A stretch of DNA of 64,000 nt from Candidatus Peribacteria bacterium. GTDB lineage: Bacteria; Patescibacteriota; Gracilibacteria; Peribacterales; Peribacteraceae. The stretch's first letter is position 1. Each line of letters begins with the position of its first letter. This document shows, piece by piece, positions 6,456-49,203 of the stretch. The position numbers and the translations under genes are program-made. The DNA is taken from assembly GCA_023245935.1 (NCBI GenBank), contig JAHFJM010000001.1:124001-188000 (forward strand), in the 5' to 3' direction. The notes under the pieces were generated by a model. It worked only from the letters and a program-made list of their open reading frames with translations. It did no database searches and had not been told where the DNA came from.

Positions 6456-6483
6456 GAATTTTCAGTTTTCAATTTTCAATTCG
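6456..6483. repeat. heptamer array at the dnaE 3' end
   Basis: On the minus strand the words ATTGAAA / ATTGAAA / ACTGAAA / ATTC repeat with a 7-nt period. The array encodes the last residues of DnaE (ELKIEN), supplies its stop codon and fills the gap to the tsaC start. Confidence 0.65.
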
Positions 6484-9400
6484 TATTTTTTTATCGCCTC
6501 CTCCACACGCTTCTCGAGCAGCGGTGACATTGTGATCGTGAGTCCGACTGGCAGAGTCTTGTCACCGATCCGGAGCTGCACTTTTTCATTGCCGGCGAAA
6601 GCTTCGAAAATATTTTTGATATCGAGCAGAAGCTGCTTCGGGGCGCGGGCGGGGAGTGTGATGGTGTGAATGGAAATCGAGGGATTGGGACGGGGGTTGG
6701 GGTTTGGAGTTCGATCAAGTGAATACTTTTCCAGACCCACTTTCTTCAGTGCCTCTTCCGTCTGCATCCCACCTTGAATCCATGCAGCGAGAGGACCGAC
6801 GAGATCTTCTCCCGAAATTTTCATCTCACTTTTTTTCGCAAATTTCGGAACTGAACTTTCTTCATCCGGCAGATGTTCCTCCTCTTCCCGCTCTTTCCTC
6901 CGGCCTCCGGCACTCCAATGGAGCGCCTCTTCATCATTGAACATTCCCTCCTGTTTCGCCTTCGCGACCATCGTTTCGAGTGACACGCGCTTCAACGCTT
7001 CCGCCTTCAGTTGCGGCTGCCCCATGCGCATGTCGAGTGTTCCTGCAATCACGAGAATCGAGTCCGGCTTCTCGAGAATATCTTTGCACTCCGCGTACGT
7101 TTTCGGAAACAAGGTGACCTCCATCCGACCGGTCGGGTCTTCGATCGTGAGAATCGCCATCGTGTCGCCCTTCTTGGTATGGAGTACTTTCGTCGCCTCC
7201 ACGATCCCGGCGACGGTGATTTTCCGGTTCATGTCATCCCCGGACAAACTGTCGATGAGCCGCGCTTTCTTGCTGATGTACTTGCGGAGCCCCGCAAGAG
7301 GATGGCTGGAAACGTAGAGCCCGAGCGTCTCTTTCTCCCAGATCAGCTTCCGGTATGCACTCGCCGGATCGATGCGATCGAATTCAATGCCGGCACCGGT
7401 ACTTGCGGCTCCAAGCGACTCGAACATATCGCTCTGCGACGCACCCTTGTCGCCGACCGACTTGCTGAACTCCACGACTTTATCGTACTGCGAGACGAGA
7501 ACCGCACGCTCCATCAGCGAATCGAATGCTCCCGATTTCGCGAGAGATTCGAGGAGTTTCTTATTGAGGAGTTTGCTCGGAATGCGGAGGGCGAAGTCCT
7601 CAATCGTCTTGAACGGTCTCCGGTCCTTCCCGTCCGCACCGTCCCGAATCGCGATGATCTGACGGATGGAACTCTCGCCGACTCCTTTGATGCCAAGGAG
7701 TCCGAAACGGATTTTCCCATTCGGGAGCGACGTGAAGTGCGCGAGCGACTCATTGATGTCCGGCGGCAACACGTCGATACCCATCGCGCGCGATTCTTCG
7801 ATTTCGATCGCGATGCGGTCGGTGTCGCCGTCCTCGCTGCTGAGGAGCGCCGCCATGAAGTCGGTCGGGTAATGCGCTTTCAAATACGCGGTCTCGTACG
7901 CGATGCGTCCGTAGCAGGCGGAGTGTGATTTATTGAATCCGTACCCCGAGAACGGCTCGATGAGTGCGAATATTTTCTCGACGGTCTCACGCTTGCGACC
8001 TTTTGCGAGCGCGCCTTGAATGAACTTTTCCCGCTGCTCTTTCAGCAGTGCGGGAATTTTTTTCGCGACCGCCTTGATGAGCAGGTAACCCGCACCGAGA
8101 CTGAAACCGGCGAACTCCTGCACGACGCGCTGCACCTGCTCCTGATACACGATGATGCCGTACGTCTCCTCGAGGAACGGCTGCAGTTCTGGCACATCGT
8201 AGGTGATGAGTTCGGGATGATGTTTCCGTTTGATGTATTCGGGAATCGACTCCATCGGACCCGGACGGTAGAGGGCACACATGGCGACGATGTCTTCGAA
8301 CCGCGTGGGCTTGAGCTGCTTCAGGTACCGGCGCATCCCGCCGGACTCGAGCTGGAAGACGCCGGTGGTCTCGCCGCGGGACAGAAGCTCGAATGTTTTT
8401 TTGTCGTCAGTAGGAATCAATGCGATGTCGATTTTCTTCCCGTGCATGCGCTCGATGATGAGGAGCGCCGTCTGGATGATCGTCAGGTTCTTGAGCCCGA
8501 GGAAGTCCATTTTGAGAAGTCCGAGGGACTCCAGCGGCTTCGCATCGTACTGCGTGATGATAATGTTCTCGTCCTTCGGAGCGCGCTGCAGCGCCGTGTA
8601 CCGCACCGCGGGCTCGGGCGTGATGACGACACCGCACGCGTGTACGGAGACGTGCCTCGCTTTGCCTTCGAGCTTGAGAGCGATTTCCAGAATTTTTTTG
8701 TACGTGTCGTTTCCCTGAATACCAGTAAGGAGTTCGTCGGTGAGGAGCGCATCTTTGAGCTCCGTTCCGGGACGATCTGAAATCAGTTTCGCGAGCGCGT
8801 TCATCTCCGCAAACGACACGCCGAACGCACGTCCGACGTCTTTGACCGCCGCACGTGCGGCAAGCGTTCCGAATGTGCAGATTTGAATCACGCGGTCACT
8901 GCCATACTTCCCGCGCACGTACTCGAGCACTTCGTCTCTCCGAGTATCTGCGAAGTCGATGTCGATATCCGGCATGCTGATGCGTTCGGGGTTGAGGAAA
9001 CGCTCGAAGAGGAGCCCGTGCTCCAGCGGATCGAGCGTTGTGATGTCGAGCACGTAACTGACGATCGATCCTGCGGCGGATCCGCGTCCCGGACCGACGG
9101 TGATCCCTCGACGCTTCGCCTCGGCGATGAAATCCGCGACGATCAGAAAGTACCCCGAGAACCCCATCTTCTTGATCGTCTCGATCTCATAGGTGAGACG
9201 CGATCGTATCTCTTTCTCCCGCTCGGGATCCTTCTCGATGATGTGCGTGTACCGCTTCTGCAATCCCTGCTCACACTGCGCATTCAGGAGCGACTCTTCC
9301 GTTTCACCTTTCTGCACGGGAAAACTCGGAATCTTGTACTGACCGAACGGAATGCTTACGGTGCAACGATCCGCGATGACCTTCGTGTTCTCGAGCGCTT

Positions 9401-10187
9401 CCGGCACGTGCGAGAATGCCGCTTCCATCTGATCGAACGGTCGTATGGAGAAATCGCTGTCACGCATCGAGAAACGACCGGTGTCACTGACATTGGAGTT
9501 TTTCTGGATGCAGAGGAGAACATCATGCGCTTCGGCATCCTCGATTCTGCAGTAGTGACTGCTGCAACTTGCGACGAGCGGCACGCCGAATTCTTTCGCG
9601 GCACGAATGAGCTGCTGATTGACCTCGGATTGTCCCGGAACATTCGGCAGATCCATCAGTTCGAAGTAGAGGTTGTCTTTGCCGAAGAACGAACGGTACT
9701 GCTCAACGAGGAGCTTCAAACGTTCACTGTCCTCCGCCATCGCAGCCTGCGGAATCGCTCCGCTGATCGGCCCGGAGAGTGCAATGAGCCCTTTTCCGTA
9801 CTGTTTCAAGAGTTCGGCATCGACTCTCGGCTTGTAATACATGCCTTCGAGTGCCGCTTTCGTCGCAAGCTCAAGAAGATTTTGGTAGCCTTCTTCGTTC
9901 GCAGCCAGAAGGACGAGCGGGTAGCGACGCGTATCGACTCCGCTCTCTTTGTCGAAGCGCGTCCTCGCGGCGACGTACGTTTCAAGCCCAAGAATCGGCT
10001 TGAGCTTGTGCTCTTTGCATGCTTTGTAGAACTCGATCAAACCGTACGTGTAGCCCTTATCCGCAAGCCCGACCGCGGACTGCCCGAGCTCTTTCGCACG
10101 CAGCACGATTTCCTCCGGTGTTGGCACCGCCTCAAGAAGGGAGAAGGTTGAGTGACAATGAAGGTGGACAAAATCAGTAGGTTTCAT
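6462..10187 (-). CDS. dnaE: DNA polymerase III alpha subunit
   Basis: This 1241-residue protein is the replicative polymerase. The N-terminal PHP domain (1-280) begins FVHLHCHSTFSLLEA. The polymerase core carries the catalytic PDIDIDF aspartates near residue 400 and GPGRGSAAGS upstream. Tandem HhH elements, a C-terminal OB fold (KITVAGIVEATKVLHTKKGD) and a tail follow. PHP metal ligands look partly changed: GLADKG where TDHG is usual, and CSSHYC where a D/N-x-H motif is expected. Built-in proofreading may therefore be weak. Residues 1160-1169 (TPNPNPRPNP) are a repeat-encoded insertion. A near copy of the first eight codons (MKPSDFVH) lies upstream at 10237-10260. Confidence 0.97.
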   Translation of the reverse strand: MKPTDFVHLHCHSTFSLLEAVPTPEEIVLRAKELGQSAVGLADKGYTYGLIEFYKACKEHKLKPILGLETYVAARTRFDKESGVDTRRYPLVLLAANEEGYQNLLELATKAALEGMYYKPRVDAELLKQYGKGLIALSGPISGAIPQAAMAEDSERLKLLVEQYRSFFGKDNLYFELMDLPNVPGQSEVNQQLIRAAKEFGVPLVASCSSHYCRIEDAEAHDVLLCIQKNSNVSDTGRFSMRDSDFSIRPFDQMEAAFSHVPEALENTKVIADRCTVSIPFGQYKIPSFPVQKGETEESLLNAQCEQGLQKRYTHIIEKDPEREKEIRSRLTYEIETIKKMGFSGYFLIVADFIAEAKRRGITVGPGRGSAAGSIVSYVLDITTLDPLEHGLLFERFLNPERISMPDIDIDFADTRRDEVLEYVRGKYGSDRVIQICTFGTLAARAAVKDVGRAFGVSFAEMNALAKLISDRPGTELKDALLTDELLTGIQGNDTYKKILEIALKLEGKARHVSVHACGVVITPEPAVRYTALQRAPKDENIIITQYDAKPLESLGLLKMDFLGLKNLTIIQTALLIIERMHGKKIDIALIPTDDKKTFELLSRGETTGVFQLESGGMRRYLKQLKPTRFEDIVAMCALYRPGPMESIPEYIKRKHHPELITYDVPELQPFLEETYGIIVYQEQVQRVVQEFAGFSLGAGYLLIKAVAKKIPALLKEQREKFIQGALAKGRKRETVEKIFALIEPFSGYGFNKSHSACYGRIAYETAYLKAHYPTDFMAALLSSEDGDTDRIAIEIEESRAMGIDVLPPDINESLAHFTSLPNGKIRFGLLGIKGVGESSIRQIIAIRDGADGKDRRPFKTIEDFALRIPSKLLNKKLLESLAKSGAFDSLMERAVLVSQYDKVVEFSKSVGDKGASQSDMFESLGAASTGAGIEFDRIDPASAYRKLIWEKETLGLYVSSHPLAGLRKYISKKARLIDSLSGDDMNRKITVAGIVEATKVLHTKKGDTMAILTIEDPTGRMEVTLFPKTYAECKDILEKPDSILVIAGTLDMRMGQPQLKAEALKRVSLETMVAKAKQEGMFNDEEALHWSAGGRRKEREEEEHLPDEESSVPKFAKKSEMKISGEDLVGPLAAWIQGGMQTEEALKKVGLEKYSLDRTPNPNPRPNPSISIHTITLPARAPKQLLLDIKNIFEAFAGNEKVQLRIGDKTLPVGLTITMSPLLEKRVEEAIKKYELKIEN
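6680..6706. repeat. G-rich repeat inside dnaE
   Basis: The plus strand carries GGGATTGGGACGGGGG followed by TTGGGG and TTTGG, a degenerate 6-7 nt period. It encodes TPNPNPRPNP in the DnaE C-terminal region, the same kind of peptide as in tsaC and secA. Confidence 0.65.
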
Positions 10188-10375: not shown

Positions 10376-12007
10376 TCAGAACGTAAACAACCGGAGTAGC
10401 CCGCCGGGAGTTGACGATGCCGAAGACGATGCCAGCGGTTCCCCGCACTGCAACTGTGCAGGAGGCTGATCGCTCAGATGCAAATCTCCACCGGAGCAGT
10501 AGTCTTCTCCGTCAAACTCCGAGGTGCAGAAGCATTTGTCACTCGCTTTCTCGTCCGTGTACAGCCCCGAGACGTACGGGTGGCAGTATTTGTTGAATGA
10601 GCGTTTGGCAACGGCATCAAGAAGAGAATTGCAGTGACCGTCCACGCACGAACGCCGCAGGAAGTAGACAAGTCTCGGAATGTACTCCTTCGGGAGGAAG
10701 TTTTCCGTGATGGAAGACAATGTCCTGATGGCGGAGTCGAGTGATACGACGGATTCCAAATTGCGTTCGTACGAGTCGCGAAGAATGGCATCGCTCATGC
10801 TCATGAAACGCTCCGTATCCTCGGAAGTATCCGAAAATTCTTTGGATGTATCGAGTTTATACATGAAATAGTACTGCTGCTCATCACCTTGGATCTGGAG
10901 ATCATCAGGCAGCGGTCTGTTCGCTCCGATTTGGCTCTTCCGATCCGCATGTGCTCGGCTGAGAATCAGCGCATTTGGCAGCGTGAAGAAGGAATCGTAG
11001 GAAGGACGAAACAACGTGCCAAATGGCAGCATCTGAGCAAGAGGAGGATCGAACGTTGCCGAGGAGCTGCCGGGATTCTGGAGGAAAGAAGGATCAAAGA
11101 AATCAGGAAACGCCGCAAGCACCGTATCGAAAGCCGCTGCACTCCCCGACTCCGGTGATTTCGGTCGGAGACATCCTTCCTGCTCCGCGTGCGGAGGGGG
11201 AGTGGCGGGGCTGCCGGGAGGATCCGGCGGGACAGCTCCTGTCAGGAGAGCAATCGTACTGTCGATGTTGAAAATCGCGTCCCTGACGAGCGTGAAAATA
11301 TCCGATGCGAGCGAGCCGGATTGATCCATAAAGTAAATCAAATCGCCTGCCTCCATCTGCAATTTGGGAGGAAGCGGGGGCAGACCGTCCCGAACGAAAG
11401 CAAGCATGTCCGCATCGCAACCGTAGCTCTTGATGTCGTATGAATTTCCGGAACTGTTTGGCAACGCGCCGATGAAGTGCGGAGCGTAATCCGTCGTGTA
11501 GGGGCAGAGGGGAGCGGTCGAATCGGGATCGACCTCGGTTCCTCCGAAAGGATCTTTGAGTCTCAGACGATTGTCCTGAAACGAAGGATCAATCGAACCC
11601 TTGAGGAACGCTCTGTACGCGGTGACGGCGTACTCGTAGATCGAACGGAGCCGGGTGGAAGCATCGATATTGCACGCGGTCGTTGCAGTATTGAACGCAG
11701 CGTAGACATCGTTCAGTTTCGACTGCAGCAGAAGACGATCACTCTCGAAACAGAGCGTGCGCTCGCGGAGAAATTGCGATTCGATCCCAAGCTCGAGGAG
11801 GAGTGTGCGTTCGTCACGAACAACGGAGAGATTCTTCCTGATCTCTCCCATCAGTGCATTATTATCGCAACTCCCGCCCCCTGATGGAACTGCGGCGATC
11901 CCCGCATCGATTTGCTTCAGAACTCCATCCACCCACGGAGACAGCGGAGTGGCTCCGGCAATCTGCGGGAAGAGAACCAAGCCGATAAGGAGAAGAATGC
12001 GACGCAT
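10376..12007 (-). CDS. secreted cysteine-rich protein, fifth gene of secreted operon
   Basis: This 543-residue protein has a signal peptide (MRRILLLIGLVLFPQIAGA, cut near residue 19). About 14 cysteines are spread over the mature part, including CFCTSEFDGEDYC near the end, suggesting disulfides or metal binding outside the membrane. I see no recognised domain. The segment GDLIYFMDQSGSLASDIFTL superficially resembles a von Willebrand MIDAS loop (DxSxS), but order and context are not convincing. The chosen ATG is 4 nt after the preceding stop; an in-frame start 41 codons upstream would overlap that gene and hide the signal peptide. It is last in the five-gene operon, 188 nt before dnaE. Confidence 0.85.
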   Translation of the reverse strand: MRRILLLIGLVLFPQIAGATPLSPWVDGVLKQIDAGIAAVPSGGGSCDNNALMGEIRKNLSVVRDERTLLLELGIESQFLRERTLCFESDRLLLQSKLNDVYAAFNTATTACNIDASTRLRSIYEYAVTAYRAFLKGSIDPSFQDNRLRLKDPFGGTEVDPDSTAPLCPYTTDYAPHFIGALPNSSGNSYDIKSYGCDADMLAFVRDGLPPLPPKLQMEAGDLIYFMDQSGSLASDIFTLVRDAIFNIDSTIALLTGAVPPDPPGSPATPPPHAEQEGCLRPKSPESGSAAAFDTVLAAFPDFFDPSFLQNPGSSSATFDPPLAQMLPFGTLFRPSYDSFFTLPNALILSRAHADRKSQIGANRPLPDDLQIQGDEQQYYFMYKLDTSKEFSDTSEDTERFMSMSDAILRDSYERNLESVVSLDSAIRTLSSITENFLPKEYIPRLVYFLRRSCVDGHCNSLLDAVAKRSFNKYCHPYVSGLYTDEKASDKCFCTSEFDGEDYCSGGDLHLSDQPPAQLQCGEPLASSSASSTPGGLLRLFTF

Positions 12008-12011
12008 GAGC

Positions 12012-13874
12012 TTACGGTCCGAATTCTTTGAAGGGTCCCGTCCACGGGCAAGGGGTGATGGTGACGGGAGCACGCTTGAGATCCTGCAACAGGTCACCCA
12101 TCTGCCGGACAAACTGTGCCATCGCGGCAAACAGTTTCTGGTTCACGGGAATCGCCTGGTCGAGTGCGACGCGCTGACCAAGGGGAAGCGCAATCGACAG
12201 GAAGTCATCCTGACTCTTCGCGATCTCCGCTGCATTCCTGACAATGGTGTTCACAGCGGTCATCTGCTCGTCGCTCGGCGACTGTGCAATTGTGTCATCA
12301 TGGAACGCACAGTCACTCAGAACGCCGCGTGCAGCATCACCGTTCTTGATGCAGTACTCCCGCTCAAAATCCTGCACGAGCAGGTGTCCCACGTACCGCG
12401 GCAGAACGAACGGGGACTTGTGCGCCGTCTCGGCGTACAGCCCGAGTCTCGGATCCGCACGCACGCAGGAGAGGTACGGCGAGGTGTTCTCATCGATCAG
12501 CGTCGTATTGCGATTCGGCACCAAGGTGTGCCCATGCATCGACTGTGCGAGACAGTGACCGATATAACATGCGTGTGCACTGATGTCGTCGGGGTAGAGA
12601 ATTTTGGTTTCCGGTGAGCAGAGAGTATCCGTATCCGCGGGCTTCAGACTCGAATTGATTTGCCCCGGATTTCCGGGAGGGGTGAGCGGTGTGCCGTCAT
12701 CTGCGTACAGATTGTTCAGATCTTTGCAGACGTCCGGTCCGGCATCGGTCTCGGTTGTGTCGACCGAACATTCGACAAGCGAGATGACTCGGGATCCGCT
12801 GCCGCTTGAAGAACTGCTACTGCTGCTCGAACTTCCGTTTGCACACTGCGCAGCACTCACGGATGCCTTGCGACACAGGTAGCCTTGCTTCCCGACCGTG
12901 CGACTGCAGAGAGGAGACCGAACTCCCTTACTCGCACTCGATGCACTCCCTTGGTACGAGAAAGGATACGCGAGCACTTTCGCAATCGATCCCTTCGCAA
13001 GAGTCGGATAGTCGTCCGCCTGCTCGATTTCGAGACGTGTGAAGTGAGAAGGATAGATCCACATCAGACCGAGATCATCTTTCCTCGCCCAGAGCGCGAC
13101 ATTGCCGACTTGTTTGAAGGAAGGCGTGACGAATTCTCCGGTCGCCTGAGGATCTCCCAGAATTTTGAGCGTCGCTGCGATATCAGCGAGTGACGAGCCG
13201 ATATCATCGCCGACCCCCGAGAATCGCGGATCAAGTTCTCTGCCGTCCCTGAAGTATCCGTGATGGAATCGCAGAATTACTTTATCCAAATCCTCCGAGC
13301 TGAGCGCTTTGAGCTTCCCGTCAAGCGCATCGAACTGAGTGTCAGCTGCTTTGTCCCAGGGAAGAAGCCCGGCTCCGGTTCCCGACCAGACATGCTTGAG
13401 GATCAAGCTTAAGGTTCCCATGCGGATCGGTCGATGCGGTTCATCGGCAATCGCAAGTTCGGAACCGTTCGTTGCCATGAGAAGATCATCCCCAAGACGA
13501 TCCGCCTGCTCCTCCGCATCCACAAGCGACAGAATGCCATCTCTCACTCCGGTGCATCCCGCATCCGATGCTCCCATCACGAAGAGTATTTTCTCTCCTG
13601 AGGCATCCACTTTGTTCTGGCAGAGCCCGTCTCCTCCGGCTGTCCACAGCTTTCCGTCTACTGCTGATTTCACGTCGTCTCTCGTCAGCTTGATGCCGGA
13701 GTCCTCCCACCGCAGCATTTCGTCGATCACGAAATCCGAAATTTGATTGCTCGGGTACCCCATCGGACCGCGGGTCTTCGCATCGTCCATGAACGTATCG
13801 AACATGGAGGCTTCCGCTCCGCTTGCGGGGAGGAGGATCAGGAGCGCCAGGAGTGATGAAAAGATTTTTTTCAT
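12012..13874 (-). CDS. secreted cysteine-rich protein with polyserine linker, fourth gene of secreted operon
   Basis: This protein of about 620 residues begins with a clear signal peptide (MKKIFSSLLALLILLPASGAEA). A GTG four codons upstream (13886) is an alternative start. The N-terminal half contains MFDTFMDDAKTRG and helical segments. The middle has a Ser/Gly linker (NGSSSSSSSSSSGSGS), and the C-terminal half carries most of the roughly 14 cysteines (for example HACYIGHCLAQ) and several short helices. No family is recognised. It is separated by 18 nt from the preceding gene and by 4 nt from the next, so these are almost certainly co-transcribed. Function is unknown. Confidence 0.85.
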   Translation of the reverse strand: MKKIFSSLLALLILLPASGAEASMFDTFMDDAKTRGPMGYPSNQISDFVIDEMLRWEDSGIKLTRDDVKSAVDGKLWTAGGDGLCQNKVDASGEKILFVMGASDAGCTGVRDGILSLVDAEEQADRLGDDLLMATNGSELAIADEPHRPIRMGTLSLILKHVWSGTGAGLLPWDKAADTQFDALDGKLKALSSEDLDKVILRFHHGYFRDGRELDPRFSGVGDDIGSSLADIAATLKILGDPQATGEFVTPSFKQVGNVALWARKDDLGLMWIYPSHFTRLEIEQADDYPTLAKGSIAKVLAYPFSYQGSASSASKGVRSPLCSRTVGKQGYLCRKASVSAAQCANGSSSSSSSSSSGSGSRVISLVECSVDTTETDAGPDVCKDLNNLYADDGTPLTPPGNPGQINSSLKPADTDTLCSPETKILYPDDISAHACYIGHCLAQSMHGHTLVPNRNTTLIDENTSPYLSCVRADPRLGLYAETAHKSPFVLPRYVGHLLVQDFEREYCIKNGDAARGVLSDCAFHDDTIAQSPSDEQMTAVNTIVRNAAEIAKSQDDFLSIALPLGQRVALDQAIPVNQKLFAAMAQFVRQMGDLLQDLKRAPVTITPCPWTGPFKEFGP

Positions 13875-13892
13875 GGAGAGTTTCACTGAGGA

Positions 13893-14843
13893 TTACGGGA
13901 GTGAATGATCGCGATCGTGTACCGAGGTGAGTGCGTCCCAGATTTTCGGCATGCAACTCGTCGCATCGGCGAGGAGACTCAATTCGTTCTTGAGGTCGAG
14001 TGACGCTCTCTGGAAACAGGTGAGCTGCAACGCGTACGCGTAGTTGAGTTCGAGAGACCGAAGCACATGAACCGTCCTGAGCATCGCGGTGCGCGCACGC
14101 TGCTTCTCGTTCTCAAGACGCGTGAGGAAGAAGCCGAGACGCACGGCGAAGACTTCGTGCGTATTTCCGGTTTTACAAGACCCCCCGCACGTTTCGTCAT
14201 CGGATTGAGTTGTTGAACAGTGAGTGTCCGAGTCGACGTGAACGCAGAGATTAAGATCGCTGCAGCAGTAGAGTTTCGGATTGTCGAGATCCAAATTTCT
14301 GCCAACAAGAGAGTCCGATGACCGCGCAAGTTCATCCAATTTGCACTCGTACTCACGCTGGAACTCTCCGAGAATCGATGTGAACGATTCGAATGTCACC
14401 GGTCGAAGTTTGGTTCCTCCGAGAGCCGACGTGTAATGCCATCCGGGCAGAAGCTCGGCGAGCGCTTTCAATTTGTCGATTGCCGGACCGCTGCCACCCT
14501 GCGACTCGTCGAGGCAACTCCACTGCGACGGTTGTTTGAAGTACTCTTCCCGTTCACCGACCACCGTCGACACGTTCTCCGTAAATTTGTCCGTTGATTC
14601 CTTCAGTGTTTCAAGATCTTCGAAGACGGTTCCGACCGTGGTGCACGCACGCGGGTTGGTGCTTGAACTGCTGGAGGAGTTGCCGCCGGATACCAAACCG
14701 CCGAGAAGACTCGCACCGAGGAAATATCGCGACGATGCGGCGACCACGCTCAGGAAAAAAAGCACGACCAGAAGCGCCTGATGGCGACGTGCTTTCTTGA
14801 GCCACTTCTTCTGCACTTTGGAGAGAGTCTGCGAATAGTTCAT
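13893..14843 (-). CDS. membrane-anchored cysteine-rich protein, third gene of secreted operon
   Basis: This 316-residue protein has a short basic cytoplasmic head (KVQKKWLKKARRHQ), one transmembrane helix at about 23-45 (ALLVVLFFLSVVAASSRYFL), a short Ser linker (GGNSSSSSST) and an external domain. That domain has about 13 cysteines, clustered in LYCCSDLNLCVHVDSDTHC and ETCGGSCKTG. The topology is type II (N-in). Its start codon overlaps the previous stop in ATGA (14840-14843), a sign of translational coupling. No recognised family. Confidence 0.85.
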   Translation of the reverse strand: MNYSQTLSKVQKKWLKKARRHQALLVVLFFLSVVAASSRYFLGASLLGGLVSGGNSSSSSSTNPRACTTVGTVFEDLETLKESTDKFTENVSTVVGEREEYFKQPSQWSCLDESQGGSGPAIDKLKALAELLPGWHYTSALGGTKLRPVTFESFTSILGEFQREYECKLDELARSSDSLVGRNLDLDNPKLYCCSDLNLCVHVDSDTHCSTTQSDDETCGGSCKTGNTHEVFAVRLGFFLTRLENEKQRARTAMLRTVHVLRSLELNYAYALQLTCFQRASLDLKNELSLLADATSCMPKIWDALTSVHDRDHSLP

Positions 14844-15655
14844 AGCCCTGGAGTAGAGAATGACGAAGAAGATGAGAAAGAGTACGACGATGAAGAGAAT
14901 GAGTTGGAAGAAGAGGAATTGGCGCTTCCGGAAATATCCGGGTTATCGCACTGACCGACGAAGCAGGGAACCTCATGCATTTTCCCGAGAAGGTTCACCA
15001 TGTCCCGGATCGGCTGCAAGACTTCGCTCGGGAACTCTCCCTGGAACCAGTCGATCATCCCGGACAACTGCAGCAAACCCCGGTAGCCGCTGTCATACGA
15101 GAACGCCAGTTGGAGCACGGAACGTTCGGTCTTCATCGACTGCGATGTGAGCCGGTCGCACTCGTGCTCCAAGCTGACCCGATCGAGCTGCGTGAGTGCA
15201 TCTTCCGTGAAACTGCAGCTTCCAAAAGTCTTCCCGGATTGATCCTTGCACCCAAGCTGTTTCACCGTGATCGTTGTTCCGGCATTCAAATCAAACGACC
15301 GTTTCATCGCAAGGCAGATGGCATTCATCCGGCAACCGAGGACGCGGTAACTTTCGACGACGGGTTCGATCAGTTCGGAGGAGAGCCGCTCCTTCGTTTC
15401 GAGAATTCCGGTCTGTGCGGATGATGCAAAGCCGCCGGTCAAGACGGAAAATTTTCCGTCTGCGTCTTCCCGCGCGCCGAACACTCGGGCACGGTACTCG
15501 TCATGGGTGTCGCTCATCGCTTCGATGATCTGCTGTCTGCACGCCGCAGGAGATGCGGATGGAGCACCGGAAACGGAGTGTGATCTCAGGAGACTGACAA
15601 CGCTCAGAAGCGTGAGCGCACCGACGCCGATGACGAGAGATTTGACGATTTTCAT
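14840..15655 (-). CDS. secreted or anchored protein with serine-rich tail, second gene of secreted operon
   Basis: This 271-residue protein has an N-terminal hydrophobic segment at about 5-23 (KSLVIGVGALTLLSVVSLL) that is either a signal peptide or an anchor. The body is largely helical with 9 cysteines (for example LGCRMNAICLAM and VPCFVGQC). The last about 35 residues are almost all serine, with asparagine and phenylalanine, ending STPGL. Such a tail is unusual and could be a flexible or glycosylated spacer. The start overlaps the preceding stop in ATGA (15652-15655). No family is recognised. Confidence 0.85.
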   Translation of the reverse strand: MKIVKSLVIGVGALTLLSVVSLLRSHSVSGAPSASPAACRQQIIEAMSDTHDEYRARVFGAREDADGKFSVLTGGFASSAQTGILETKERLSSELIEPVVESYRVLGCRMNAICLAMKRSFDLNAGTTITVKQLGCKDQSGKTFGSCSFTEDALTQLDRVSLEHECDRLTSQSMKTERSVLQLAFSYDSGYRGLLQLSGMIDWFQGEFPSEVLQPIRDMVNLLGKMHEVPCFVGQCDNPDISGSANSSSSNSFSSSSYSFSSSSSFSTPGL

Positions 15656-18600
15656 GGGGTGGACGCGGGACGCAGTTCGACCTCGACGGGAAGATCGAGG
15701 TGCGGAAATAATCGCTTGAGGATGGGGATCGGCGCATGGAGGTACGGATTTGTTTTCTCCGCATCGTCTGCGGAAAGCGTTGTGTCCCCGTACGGCGGCA
15801 GTGTTGCTTTTTCCAGCGTACTCGCAACCGAACTGAAGTCACTTGTCGCATTCGGGAAGAACATCTGCCACTTCACCGTCGTCGACTGCTGCGCCGGAAG
15901 GAGCGCGCAGATAACATCTTCGTTGCACTTGAGCGGAGTGACGGAAGGCTCTTGCTGCACTCGCTGCGTTCTTCCCGCGAAGTCCGGAATCCTGTTCGGC
16001 ATCCACCGTGAGAATAGGCGTGCGACGCGTTCTTTGAGGTCATTCTCGATGTGGATGATCCGATCGGGATTCCCCGCTTCCGTCGGCGGAATCAGAACGC
16101 TCCGGATGAATCTGCAATACATCCCGCGCATGTTGTGGCGATCGAACGAAAAGTTCGTATCGGATTCTTTCTCCGCGATACCGCCGTTCGCACTCTCCCG
16201 CGCTTCCTGCGCGAGTTGATCTTCGACCGTCGTCCCGTCGATCTTCACGCGGAATTTCCGGAGAACGTCTTTCGCGGCGGCAAGGCTGGTCACCGTCGGT
16301 ATCTCGAGAATACGCGGAGTCGGAAGCTGTACCGTCGGGCTGGTGAACGAATCGAAAATCGACGCATCGGGGAGTGTCGGCAGATCGGGAAAATTCGAGA
16401 CATCCTCGGGTGGAGAATTCAGAAGCGGCGGATGCGGCAATTTGATTTTCACCTGAATCGGCCAGAGCACAGGAACTTTGAGGTCTCCTTTCGGAAGCGA
16501 GAGGAAGGAGAAATCGTAGAGCTGATCCTTCGGTCTAGGGACGGGGAAATTGCGAAGATCATCCGGAGGAACGTACTCTTTGTTCCTGCCCGTATGCGGC
16601 GGTCGGTCTCCCCACCAACGATCGAGAAGTGAATAGACGTCCAACGAATAGCGTTGATTGGAACACCACTGGAGCTGACACCGATCCGCCATCAACATCG
16701 AATTCTGGATATGCCGCCAGATGTTCTTCAGTCTTCTGATCTCTTCTGATCTCTGCGCCGCTTCCTTCAGTTTCCCCGTATTGTCTTTGTACCAATTCGC
16801 CATGAACGTATCGATCTCACGCAGAGGATTCAGGAGCGTGACCAGTTCCTTGCTGAGCGCACCTCGCAGCACACGTTCTTGATCAAGTGCAGTGCGATAA
16901 CCCTGCAATTTTGTGATGAGCGGATCCGCAAGATTCGCGTACGACGTGCGACCGGTGCGACTTGCATCCAGCGTTTCAAGTTGTTTCCACTGATTCCACT
17001 CGAGAATCAGCGTATCGATCTCCGCCTTCGATGCGAGGGGGATGAGGATAGGAATCCGTACTTCGCTCACAGGCAAGACATAACTCTGCTTGAAGGACGC
17101 GAGAACGTTTCCGATGTCTTCGGGCCCCGCACGCAATGTCAGTTCGACGGTGCCGTTCGGTTTCGAGACGGTTCCCTTCACGTACTGAAACAGCGGGTTC
17201 TTGTCATCAAGACCGACCAAAAATCTTGCGGGCATGATGAGCCGCACCGTCGGATCGCGCACGAGTTCGAGAAGAATGTTCTCCTGCGCTTCCCAGTATT
17301 TGCTCATCGCGCGGTGATCGGAATCGTCGAACATGTCCGTTCGCGCATTCTTCGGCACGGATTTGCTTGCGAGCTGTTTCGTCTCGACGATCGCACCGAG
17401 GACGCCGGTGACATCGGACGGATCATCGAATCCCTTTTGAATTTCTTTCAGTGCTTTGACATCGAGAATCGTCAGATTCGTCTGCGTGTCGGCGATCCAC
17501 GGGCTCGGCACGGAGCGGGAGGGTCTGACGGGATCGGTTATCTTCGGAGGGCTCGGAGGGAAGGGGCTATCCACATTCTCCTTCTGCTTCCCGCCTTCCG
17601 TATCCTTCCACTCCGGCGTCGGATCCGTCAGTACGATCTCACACTGCTCGTCATTGTCCTTCCCTATGCCGTCTCCGTATCCGCTTGTCACCGTATCCCT
17701 CGGATCAAAAGGGTTGCCATCAGCGTTCGTCTCTTTGTAGTACTCGTAACACTCGGCACGCAGCGTTCCGCCGGGCGGTGTCACCTTCACTCCGGGAACC
17801 ATGTAGTCCGTTGCATAGTGGCGGTAGAACGAACTGGGGAGCCCCACATGCTCGCCTTTAACTTTTTCTATGATATGCCAATAGATGCAACCGGGACCGC
17901 AGGAGCGAAGCTCATACTCGCACTCCGTCATTTTATTCTTAAACGATGGCAACCAGTCCGTCCTGCACGTCGTATTCTTCGGAACATCGGTGGAAGGAGG
18001 CAGCTCTACCGCACCCTGAGGAACGAGAATCGGCGGCATGATCGCGCTACTCTTCTCCGGACGAACGCCGCTGGTTCCCTCGCACTCAAAAGTCGTACCC
18101 GGGTCAAAGCAGTAGCGCTTCGCGGGTCTCTTTGAGCAAATAGCGAAACCATCGTTGGGTGTGTGTCCTTCACAATCGCACGTACTCGTCACTGGAGGAT
18201 GAATGACGACGAGCATCGACATGGCATGCCATGCATCGTAGAGTTTCTTGCAGTATTTGGGGGTTGCCTTCTCATACCGTGTACACCAACCGGATGGATT
18301 GATGTCGATATACCCTGCCCCTCCTTCCACCACTGCGACCGAACCTCCGTCAAAATTTTTACATTCGATCTCCGTACCCGAACAGGGACTTTCGCGCAAT
18401 TTGACGTCCAGCTCCAGTCTTTTCAGATCCTCATCGTACATTACCGATGTATACAAATCGCACGCGGATTCATAGCCGAATGCACTGTCGGGATACTGAA
18501 AGGCACCCCGTACCCCGACTCCGGTTTTCATATTCCCGAGCGGGCTGAGGTTATCCCTCCCGGGCAGTGCGATCGGATCCGGTCCTCCGTTTCTGCGGTA

Positions 18601-18825
18601 TGCGGAGAACGTCGGTATCGGGATGGATCCCGCAGCACCCGGTCCTTCCACCCATCCTCCGCACTCGAGCGAGTTGATATTCGTCTTTACCTCGTTCACT
18701 CCGTACTGAAAGTCTTTATAGTTTGTTGGAGCATTCATGACAGGAACAAAAGGCGCTGCATTCGCTGTTCCCGTCACAGCCAGAATCCCGAATGTCAGCG
18801 CAATGAGAGAGTGATGTTTCAGCAT
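15652..18825 (-). CDS. large secreted cysteine-rich protein, first gene of secreted operon
   Basis: This 1057-residue protein has a signal peptide (MLKHHSLIALTFGILAVTG, cut near TANA-APF). About 17 of its 22 cysteines lie in the first 430 residues, in pairs such as TCDCEGH and ELRSCGPGCIYWH. A proline-rich hinge follows (PPSPPKITDPVRPSRS). Then come a long mixed domain of about 350 residues with helical stretches, a second proline-rich part (PHPPLLNSPPEDVSNFP) and a C-terminal domain with two more cysteines. The modular layout suggests an extended surface structure. No known domain is recognised. An in-frame ATG 13 codons upstream (18864) would mask the signal peptide. Confidence 0.87.
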   Translation of the reverse strand: MLKHHSLIALTFGILAVTGTANAAPFVPVMNAPTNYKDFQYGVNEVKTNINSLECGGWVEGPGAAGSIPIPTFSAYRRNGGPDPIALPGRDNLSPLGNMKTGVGVRGAFQYPDSAFGYESACDLYTSVMYDEDLKRLELDVKLRESPCSGTEIECKNFDGGSVAVVEGGAGYIDINPSGWCTRYEKATPKYCKKLYDAWHAMSMLVVIHPPVTSTCDCEGHTPNDGFAICSKRPAKRYCFDPGTTFECEGTSGVRPEKSSAIMPPILVPQGAVELPPSTDVPKNTTCRTDWLPSFKNKMTECEYELRSCGPGCIYWHIIEKVKGEHVGLPSSFYRHYATDYMVPGVKVTPPGGTLRAECYEYYKETNADGNPFDPRDTVTSGYGDGIGKDNDEQCEIVLTDPTPEWKDTEGGKQKENVDSPFPPSPPKITDPVRPSRSVPSPWIADTQTNLTILDVKALKEIQKGFDDPSDVTGVLGAIVETKQLASKSVPKNARTDMFDDSDHRAMSKYWEAQENILLELVRDPTVRLIMPARFLVGLDDKNPLFQYVKGTVSKPNGTVELTLRAGPEDIGNVLASFKQSYVLPVSEVRIPILIPLASKAEIDTLILEWNQWKQLETLDASRTGRTSYANLADPLITKLQGYRTALDQERVLRGALSKELVTLLNPLREIDTFMANWYKDNTGKLKEAAQRSEEIRRLKNIWRHIQNSMLMADRCQLQWCSNQRYSLDVYSLLDRWWGDRPPHTGRNKEYVPPDDLRNFPVPRPKDQLYDFSFLSLPKGDLKVPVLWPIQVKIKLPHPPLLNSPPEDVSNFPDLPTLPDASIFDSFTSPTVQLPTPRILEIPTVTSLAAAKDVLRKFRVKIDGTTVEDQLAQEARESANGGIAEKESDTNFSFDRHNMRGMYCRFIRSVLIPPTEAGNPDRIIHIENDLKERVARLFSRWMPNRIPDFAGRTQRVQQEPSVTPLKCNEDVICALLPAQQSTTVKWQMFFPNATSDFSSVASTLEKATLPPYGDTTLSADDAEKTNPYLHAPIPILKRLFPHLDLPVEVELRPASTP

Positions 18826-19029
18826 CGGGGCAGAGTTGGAGAGAAGTGTACTGCAAGCTCCCATTCCGTGCGCGACGAACTGTTGTTGAAAGTACTACGA
18901 AAAAACAAAAATATTTTTCATCAATTGTTTTCACTTGCAGGAGAAAATCGATGGGTGTACGTTCGTTCACATCCGCACGTACTGCGGATTTGGCCAGAGG
19001 CCTCCTCTACTTCCATTCCCCCCTCAGAG
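18826..19029. promoter_or_regulatory. divergent intergenic region between secreted operon and ssb
   Basis: About 200 bp separate the divergent starts. On the plus strand TTGAAA, 17 nt and AAATAT fit a weak promoter for ssb. On the minus strand TTGCAA, 17 nt and AAATAT fit one for the operon. Both use the same AT-rich core (ACAAAAATATTTTTC region), so the two directions may compete. No ribosome-binding site precedes either start. Confidence 0.35.
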
Positions 19030-19902
19030 ATGTTCTCTCTCAACAGAGTCGAAATCATCGGCTACCAGACACAACCCGTCTCCGTCCGCAAGACACCGGG
19101 CGGCATCAGCGTGACGGACTTGAACGTCGTCGTCCCGTACGCGTTCGAATCGAGCAAAGGCGAAAAGATTCAGGGAAAGAGTTTCCACACCGTGACGGTG
19201 TGGGGCAGCATGGCGGACATCGCAGGACAGTACGTCCGTGCGGGCAGCCAGCTCTACCTCTCCGGTCGTCTGCAAACGGACAGCTGGGATGACGAGAAAA
19301 CAAAAGAGAAGCGATCGAAGACGAAAATCGTCGCGATGGATTTGATCATGCTCGACCCGAAAGACGGCCAGAGCGAAGCTCCTGCAACCGCCGACGCACT
19401 CCTCAGTTACCTCAACCGCGCAGAAGTGATCGGCAATGTCACGCGTGAACCCGAAATGCGCACGACGACGAATGGACAGAATGTCCTGACGATCGGCATC
19501 GCAACGAATGAGCGCTGGAAGGACAAAGCAACCGGCGAGATGAAAGAGCGTGCCGAGTTCCATAACGTCGTGATCTGGGGTGAACTTGCGAAAGCCGTCC
19601 AGTCGTCGGTCAAAAAAGGTCAGCGCCTCTTCGCTTCCGGTCGCGTGCAGACTAGGACGTGGGAAACCAAAGAAGGACAGAAACGCGCGACGACCGAGAT
19701 TATCGCCGATGCGGTGACACTCCTCGGCATGCGCAGTGCCGATGCAATGAACGCAGTGTCGAATGATGCAGCCCGGGCAGGAATGCCCGCTCCCGTACGC
19801 TCTGAGCGGAACGAGCAGACAGAGCCCGTGGGCGTCGCTGCGAATGGAGTGCCTGACATAAAATACGAGTCCGAAATTAAAGCGGAAGATCTGCCGTTTT
19901 AA
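19030..19902 (+). CDS. ssb: single-stranded DNA-binding protein with two OB folds
   Basis: This 290-residue protein is about twice the usual subunit core. OB fold 1 is residues 1-113 (MFSLNRVEIIGYQTQPVSVR, VTVWGSMADIAGQYVRAGSQ, LYLSGRLQTDSW). OB fold 2 is about 130-238 (LNRAEVIGNVTREPEMR, FHNVVIWGELAKAVQSSVKK, RLFASGRVQTRTWE). A disordered linker ends in the canonical tip EDLPF, which in this family recruits replication and repair partners. Two OB folds per chain are typical of Deinococcus-Thermus SSB, which dimerises rather than forming a tetramer. I infer the same here. The gene is divergent from the secreted operon and has its own terminator. Confidence 0.93.
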   Translation: MFSLNRVEIIGYQTQPVSVRKTPGGISVTDLNVVVPYAFESSKGEKIQGKSFHTVTVWGSMADIAGQYVRAGSQLYLSGRLQTDSWDDEKTKEKRSKTKIVAMDLIMLDPKDGQSEAPATADALLSYLNRAEVIGNVTREPEMRTTTNGQNVLTIGIATNERWKDKATGEMKERAEFHNVVIWGELAKAVQSSVKKGQRLFASGRVQTRTWETKEGQKRATTEIIADAVTLLGMRSADAMNAVSNDAARAGMPAPVRSERNEQTEPVGVAANGVPDIKYESEIKAEDLPF

Positions 19903-47918: not shown

Positions 47919-48446
47919 ATGCAGACAATACACAATTTACTCAAGAAGCGTTTTGTACAGGAGGTTCTTGGCGGAGTACTGGGGATGATTGTTGCAGTGA
48001 TCCTCTACAACGTCAGTGCGGGACTTCCTTCTGCGCAAATTACGAAAGGGCTTTTGGTCGATACGTCGACGAGTGTCGCAGACGTGTCGAGTGCGACGGA
48101 CAGTGCATCACCTCAGACCGCAGCTCCTGATTCGGTTTCGCAGGCAGTCACCGACCACAGTGATCCCGCAGGATGGACGACGATGCGCGAAAATCAGCGT
48201 GACCTTGCATCCGTCTTCGATGTTTCCGTGCAGAAAGTGGGAGCACAGGAGACGCAGCCGACGGTTGCAGAGGTCACGCCGCCGACTCCTGCAGTACAGG
48301 AGACCGCACCGGCGGAAGTGCCGGCGACTGATACGCATCTTCCGAATTCCGGTCCGATGCTGAATCTTACGATCTTCGCTGCATTTCTTCTCGCCTGTTT
48401 CTGCAGGAAGGATGCATTGATTGCGGTGTTGCAGAGAGCTCATTAG
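47919..48446 (+). CDS. surface protein with LPNSG sorting signal
   Basis: This 175-residue protein has an N-terminal membrane segment at about 14-35 (EVLGGVLGMIVAVILYNVSA) and a Thr/Ser/Pro/Ala-rich stalk (VAEVTPPTPAVQETAPAEVP). The end is a sortase-type signal: LPNSG at 141-145, a helix (NLTIFAAFLLACFC), then RKDALIAVLQRAH. The same LPNSG motif ends the FnIII protein at 37186. It ends one base before the prepilin peptidase gene. Role unknown. Confidence 0.75.
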   Translation: MQTIHNLLKKRFVQEVLGGVLGMIVAVILYNVSAGLPSAQITKGLLVDTSTSVADVSSATDSASPQTAAPDSVSQAVTDHSDPAGWTTMRENQRDLASVFDVSVQKVGAQETQPTVAEVTPPTPAVQETAPAEVPATDTHLPNSGPMLNLTIFAAFLLACFCRKDALIAVLQRAH

Positions 48447-48447
48447 G

Positions 48448-49203
48448 ATGGGGATCGTGACTCTCACGATTTTTCTCTTCGCACTCTTCGGTCTGGTCTT
48501 CGGGAGTTTCGGGAACGTTCTCATTCTTCGTCTCGAGAAAAGAGAGTCTCTTCTCGGACGTTCGCGTTGCATGTCGTGCAAACGATCTCTCGGATTTCTC
48601 GATCTCGTTCCCGTTCTGAGTTACGCATTTCTCGGAGGGCGTTGCAGGAGATGCGGTGCTCAAATTTCCGTTCAGTATCCGATTGTTGAAATTCTGTCAG
48701 GTACCGTTTTTGTTTTGGCAGCCGCACTGTATCCCTCGAATGTTTTTCTTGCCGTTCTCACGGCGTTTCTTCTGTACTGCCTCCTCCTCTCGAGTGTCGA
48801 GGATGTTCTGTACCAAAAACTTCCGGACATGTTTGTAGCAGGTATTGCGATTGCCGCTCTGGTGATGACGTTGCTATCGGGAAATATTCTTTCTTCTCTT
48901 TCCGCCCTTTGCGTCACACTCGTTTGGTTCGGCGGTCAGTGGATCCTGAGTAATGGCAGAGCGACCGGTACGGGTGACATTTTTCTCTCCTCAGCTCTCG
49001 CCCTGTGGCTTGGACTTCGCGGAACGATTGCCATGCTGTTTCTGAGTTATATGGTCGGAGCAGTCATCACACTTCTTCTGCTGGGGCTCGGCGTGATTTC
49101 GATGAAGCAGAAGCGCATCGCCTTCGGTCCGTTTCTGGCAATCGGTGCGTTGCTTGCGTTTCTCGGAGTTGGACAGGAGTTTTTTGAGATATTTCTCTCA
49201 TAA
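48448..49203 (+). CDS. pilD: prepilin peptidase (A24 family)
   Basis: This membrane protein of about 251 residues cleaves type IV prepilin-like signal peptides and may methylate them. The N-terminal cytoplasmic domain has the zinc cysteines CMSCKRSLGFLD and GRCRRCGAQ. Catalytic aspartates are in LLSSVEDVLYQKLPDM and the GTGDIFLSSALALWLG (GxGD) motif. At least seven helices follow. No pilin or pilus ATPase genes lie in the window. It starts one base after the LPNSG protein stop. Confidence 0.92.
   Translation: MGIVTLTIFLFALFGLVFGSFGNVLILRLEKRESLLGRSRCMSCKRSLGFLDLVPVLSYAFLGGRCRRCGAQISVQYPIVEILSGTVFVLAAALYPSNVFLAVLTAFLLYCLLLSSVEDVLYQKLPDMFVAGIAIAALVMTLLSGNILSSLSALCVTLVWFGGQWILSNGRATGTGDIFLSSALALWLGLRGTIAMLFLSYMVGAVITLLLLGLGVISMKQKRIAFGPFLAIGALLAFLGVGQEFFEIFLS

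Follow-up and report, generated by a model that had tools for sequence, protein, structure and literature searches.

Among CPR bacteria with an episymbiont-like lifestyle, Peribacteria included, the means of attaching to partners or feeding on them are an open question, and to our knowledge most genes of such bacteria belong to no known family. Peribacter genomes encode large, cysteine-rich exported proteins, for which a role in attachment was proposed in 2016 (PMC4736985). The averages published in that report for a cysteine-rich cluster of 14 genes in Candidatus Peribacter riflensis are 7.2% cysteine and 1655 aa (PMC4736985). Partial likeness to the locus analyzed here is also found in peptidase M76 (ATP23; PF09768) and other HExxH zincins, in DUF4215 or Myxococcus cysteine-rich repeat proteins, and in tip adhesins and minor pilins of type IV pili. 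We focused on a window of DNA, that is, the whole stretch of 64,000 nucleotides that was analyzed, from a Candidatus Peribacteria bacterium whose genome (G000) is 1.22 Mb in size and 99% complete. Five genes, here referred to as A to E, lie head to tail on its minus strand at positions 10376-18825 (Table 1). Like the P. riflensis cluster, they come from the same bacterial group and encode large exported proteins that contain cysteines and lack a functional annotation (PMC4736985). Compared with the published averages of that cluster, however, they contain 2.1–3.5% cysteine, and they are distinguished by a fixed five-gene order and by invariant cysteines in single-copy genes.

Table 1. Positions of the five-gene block, its flanks and related features in other Peribacterales genomes.
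Feature	Position	Strand	Description
gene A	15652-18825	(-)	1057 aa, predicted to be exported, 22 Cys
gene B	14840-15655	(-)	271 aa, predicted to be exported, 8 Cys
gene C	13893-14843	(-)	316 aa, 11 Cys, N-terminal membrane anchor at residues 22-44
gene D	12012-13886	(-)	624 aa, predicted to be exported, 14 Cys
gene E	10376-12007	(-)	543 aa, predicted to be exported, 13 Cys
intergenic region between A and divergent ssb	18826-19029	.	promoter location of A-E if the unit has its own
ssb	19030-19902	(+)	290 aa, divergent flank outside the module
dnaE	6462-10187	(-)	downstream flank outside the module
divergent D homologue of G074	L090:7504-15375		2623 aa, 259 Cys, ten DUF4215 stretches
loci with the zincin-like domain in A	L039, L109, L110, L111		
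stand-alone domain protein of G006	L108:9229-12459		DUF4215-like repeats, hydrophobic C-terminal tail

A five-gene unit with exported products of these sizes had been proposed in an earlier, sequence-only reading of the window, and all five frames were confirmed, each with an N-terminal signal or anchor. The junctions, described there as ATGA overlaps or short gaps, are ATGA overlaps at A/B and B/C, followed by gaps of 6 nt between C and D and 4 nt between D and E. Gene D starts with GTG, and an alternative ATG four codons in would widen the C/D gap to 18 nt. Polyserine had been reported for three of the proteins, and we found runs of at least four residues in B, C and D, that of B forming its tail. 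The cysteine counts made by eye were right for A (22) and D (14) and slightly high for B (9 instead of 8), C (13 instead of 11) and E (14 instead of 13). If the unit has a promoter of its own, it must lie in the intergenic region between A and ssb, in which no consensus promoter above chance was found. The ssb product itself is about twice the usual length, and by eye it appears to consist of two OB-type repeats.

At its N-terminus, each of the five proteins has a single hydrophobic segment or a signal-like start, beyond which membrane segments are essentially absent. The start of A in the window is of the AxA type, yet it falls under the hydropathy threshold that we used. In the relatives G031 and G030 a lipobox replaces the membrane anchor of C. 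From the membrane segment in the window and the lipobox in these two relatives, C is probably the anchor of the complex.

We then analyzed the conservation of the block. The sequence-only reading had named a lack of conserved gene order among relatives beforehand as evidence against it; profile searches found A-B-C-D-E collinear on one strand in 29 of 30 Peribacterales genomes. In the remaining one (G074), A, B, C and E keep their places and the position of D is occupied by a protein of 2623 aa with 259 cysteines. Gene A was detected in 64 of the 74 genomes of the order Peribacterales. The conserved surroundings consist of ftsW, murG, a cyclophilin, gltX, a membrane protein, murB, the divergent ssb, the block and dnaE, in which ftsW, murG, the cyclophilin-type isomerase, gltX and murB were identified by a Pfam match or by reading of the sequence. 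In most relatives it is ssb and dnaE that flank the block. Among the ten genomes without a hit to gene A, eight were inspected (all except G016 and G034) and four proved to be true losses. In these four (G006, G058, G009 and G025) the whole block is absent, and murB and ssb are followed directly by dnaE. As for the other four inspected, gene E lies at a contig edge in G091, dnaE is located near a contig start in G070 and G072, and in G092 dnaE begins at one. At the site of the lost block in G025, a reading frame of 172 aa (L149:965-1483) is present between dnaE and ssb. The five genes are gained and lost as a unit, because the whole block is gone where ssb adjoins dnaE.

Between the sister genomes G001 and G002, dN/dS is 0.058 for A, 0.101 for B, 0.141 for C, 0.123 for D and 0.081 for E, values for which synonymous sites are near saturation. 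Across relatives that are only 20–25% identical, nine cysteines of A, all eight of B (20 relatives) and thirteen of D are invariant, and the cysteine columns rank with the least variable of these family alignments. Moreover, the cysteine content of A–E exceeds that of most housekeeping proteins of the window, which is mostly 0–1.4%. Strong purifying selection and the many cysteines invariant in distant relatives show that A–E are more than a product of chance. VKOR, a disulfide enzyme, was detected in 14 of the 74 Peribacterales genomes and scored over the cut-off in only 8 of them, although conserved cysteines are common in the exported proteins of the order. We rejected it as a partner of the block on account of this patchy occurrence; disulfide formation would thus rely on another route, or the disulfides are only putative. 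Sortase is universal in the order and is therefore uninformative on the role of the block.

The D protein of most relatives carries an additional domain, about 200 residues long, which is inserted after a conserved GPDxC motif and is absent from D of the window. Its signature is HELVHAxQxC, then CCxxE, together with many invariant cysteines. The domain profile matches 47 of the 74 Peribacterales genomes, and none was detected in the other 27. A zinc motif of the HELVHAxxxC type likens the domain to peptidase M76 and the HExxH zincins. The similarity to M76 is weak, being found in 5 of 10 copies with a best E-value of 9.7e-5, which is under the Pfam cut-off; one copy scored 15.6 bits against the curated cut-off of 25.2. 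In contrast to M76, the domain of the relatives is predicted to be exported and has many invariant cysteines and the CCxxE motif, the similarity is mostly around the zinc motif, and the domain is missing from the window's own proteins. Neither A nor D of the window contains HExxH, and the domain profile finds nothing in G000. Among 45 distinct full-length copies, a set that leaves out a fragment in G015 and a weak match in G003, HExxH is intact in 39 and lost in 6, and the Glu of CCxxE is present in all 45. Proteolysis cannot be the core function, because HExxH is lost in these 6 copies and no domain was detected in 27 genomes. The scaffold, not the peptidase-like domain, is the conserved part of the system.

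In four relatives (G027, G066, G078 and G081) the domain is found inside A instead of D, and it is never present in both. These copies sit in the N-terminal part of A, after the same CGGW motif in G027, G066 and G078 and further along in G081. In the tree of A, the clade of the window comprises 11 rows; in three of its members the domain lies in A, and each of these stands beside domain-less relatives. This suggests that the domain was lost repeatedly in the clade, the window's genus being among the apparent losers, and the placements in A may stem from a single event or from more than one. In G006, from which the block has been lost, the domain is kept in an unrelated stand-alone protein of 1076 aa with 66 cysteines (Table 1). 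The simplest reading of the domain movement would be that A and D are neighbours in one assembly and that both insertion sites lie on its exposed side. The movement suggests contact of the two subunits, short of proof.

Other inserted repeats were also observed. DUF4215 occurs as ten stretches in D of G074 and as a repeat in E of one relative, and a TSP3_bac repeat is present in D of one relative; all of these insertions are of extracellular type. This likens the block to the DUF4215 and Myxococcus cysteine-rich repeat proteins, but only a few members have the repeats, which are absent from the core of all five families. The sequence-only reading had seen no recognizable family in the block. 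This holds for all five proteins of the window and has to be amended for the relatives, whose D contains the zincin-like domain and repeats of the DUF4215 or TSP3 type.

We searched the five window proteins against Pfam, NCBIfam, PHROGs and PADLOC and obtained no meaningful match for any of them, and no convincing match to PDB sequences was found by profile. Block proteins had no match in the defence-system search and no relatives in the viral collection. A clear match to a known secretion or pilus system, another outcome that had been set against the earlier proposal, did not appear in the Pfam, NCBIfam and PDB-sequence profile searches. Profile comparisons of B with C, C with E, B with E, D with E and A with D show nothing beyond the signal peptide, and paralogy among the five was rejected. 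The D profile found no match outside the family in 192 genomes drawn from the class, 29 of which matched and all belong to the family; the E profile likewise found no match outside the family among 380 genomes of the phylum. A species-wide contig scan with gene A, which detects close relatives only, returned Peribacteria alone. As far as tested, the module is confined to the Peribacterales group. The literature that we searched, supplementary tables aside, contains no account of such a five-gene module or of a domain moving between subunits. At the level of sequence the block matches no known system, its newness being provisional, and the domain movement between A and D is new here.

Structure models of A were built with AlphaFold2 from an input of only the window and five relatives, for the whole protein and for its core. 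The model of the whole protein has a mean pLDDT of 38. The core (residues about 500–830), which is the best-conserved part of A, was modelled with a pLDDT of 64 and moderate confidence; in this model a small alpha/beta unit carries long helices. Fold searches with these two weak models yielded nothing significant, with best Z scores of 5.0 and 5.3 and no Foldseek E-value below 0.001. The middling matches are ferredoxin-like or KH-like units and long-helix proteins, and we gave them no functional reading.

On balance, we lean towards A–E forming a surface complex that is anchored in the membrane, stabilised by disulfides and equipped with exchangeable outward domains; its most likely use would be contact with other cells. 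That the five proteins belong to one extracellular assembly, as the sequence-only reading had supposed, appears well supported by the conserved order, the loss as a block, the domain moving between A and D and the export signals. The same reading had thought of an appendage or a secretion-like complex, for which no match speaks. A lineage-specific tip or adhesin complex, with the five proteins riding on a type IV pilus, would find a precedent in the large cysteine-containing pilus-tip adhesins that exist elsewhere, which are likewise large exported proteins, and A–E may share their adhesive role. It is also in accordance with the PilC-type T2SSF encoded in 53 of the 74 genomes of the order, the window's own included. 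However, gene A is present with no T2SSF hit in 16 genomes. Among these are G001 and G002, the sister species of the window, as well as the near-complete G030, G032 and G081. In five genomes T2SSF is found without the block. The association of gene A with T2SSF is not significant (48/16/5/5, Fisher p = 0.13). Unlike pilus adhesins and minor pilins, A–E have ordinary signals or anchors instead of prepilin-like N-termini, and no pilus genes adjoin the block, the conserved upstream genes being ftsW, murG, a cyclophilin-type isomerase, gltX and murB and not pilus genes. The block-positive genomes without detectable PilC contradict a type IV pilus link, and after the T2SSF survey of 74 genomes we rejected the pilus as the main explanation; a pilus-borne complex is highly improbable. 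As a separate observation, a prepilin peptidase (Peptidase_A24) is encoded at positions 48421-49203 of the window, so that type IV pilus-type genes are found about 30 kb from the block. PilC/T2SSF was undetected in 21 of the 74 Peribacterales genomes, near-complete ones and the sister species of the window included, and type IV pili are patchily lost within the order.

Several periplasmic proteins of F-type T4SS are cysteine-rich, and ssb adjoins the block, as might be expected if A–E were the outer parts of a secretion or DNA-uptake apparatus of the F-type T4SS-like or competence-like kind. We regard this as very unlikely, for the block encodes neither an ATPase nor a channel nor a multi-pass membrane protein, the Pfam and NCBIfam searches matched it to no component of this kind, and ssb stands in the same place in genomes without the block. 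A complex that assembles or trims the organism's own cell wall or S-layer, and does not serve host contact, would agree with ftsW, murG and murB in the conserved neighbourhood and with the near-universal retention of the block in the order, and the zincin-like domain could process the organism's own surface proteins. But the divergent ssb separates the mur genes from A, an arrangement that gives no sign of joint transcription, the neighbouring genes are generally of the housekeeping kind (gltX, dnaE), and several lineages that retain their mur genes do without the block. A role in building the envelope is thus unlikely in our judgement.

In the favoured surface complex, A–E would encode one extracytoplasmic assembly of Peribacterales, presumably held together by disulfides. 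C, through its membrane segment or, in some relatives, its lipobox, would be the likely anchor, and A, B and E would form the scaffold. A and D would present exposed, exchangeable domains outward: a zincin-like metallopeptidase in most species, repeats of the DUF4215 or TSP3 type in some, and none in the window's genus. The complex may be used for contact with proteins on the surface of another cell or on Peribacterium's own wall, and where the peptidase is intact it might process these proteins. The role in contact with partner cells is extrapolated from the lifestyle. More tentatively, and with some doubt, we propose an order-specific machine of five subunits, in which the scaffold is fixed, metallopeptidase-like and other modules are swapped between two subunits, and the surface of a partner cell is engaged or processed.

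As a target, the block is compact and conserved, occurs as a single copy, is sometimes lost cleanly and has a clear genetic signature. From the domain alternating between A and D one can predict the two subunits in contact and the side that faces outward, and the lineages without the block are natural controls. If the surface complex described above is the true explanation, five unnamed families would become one testable surface machine.
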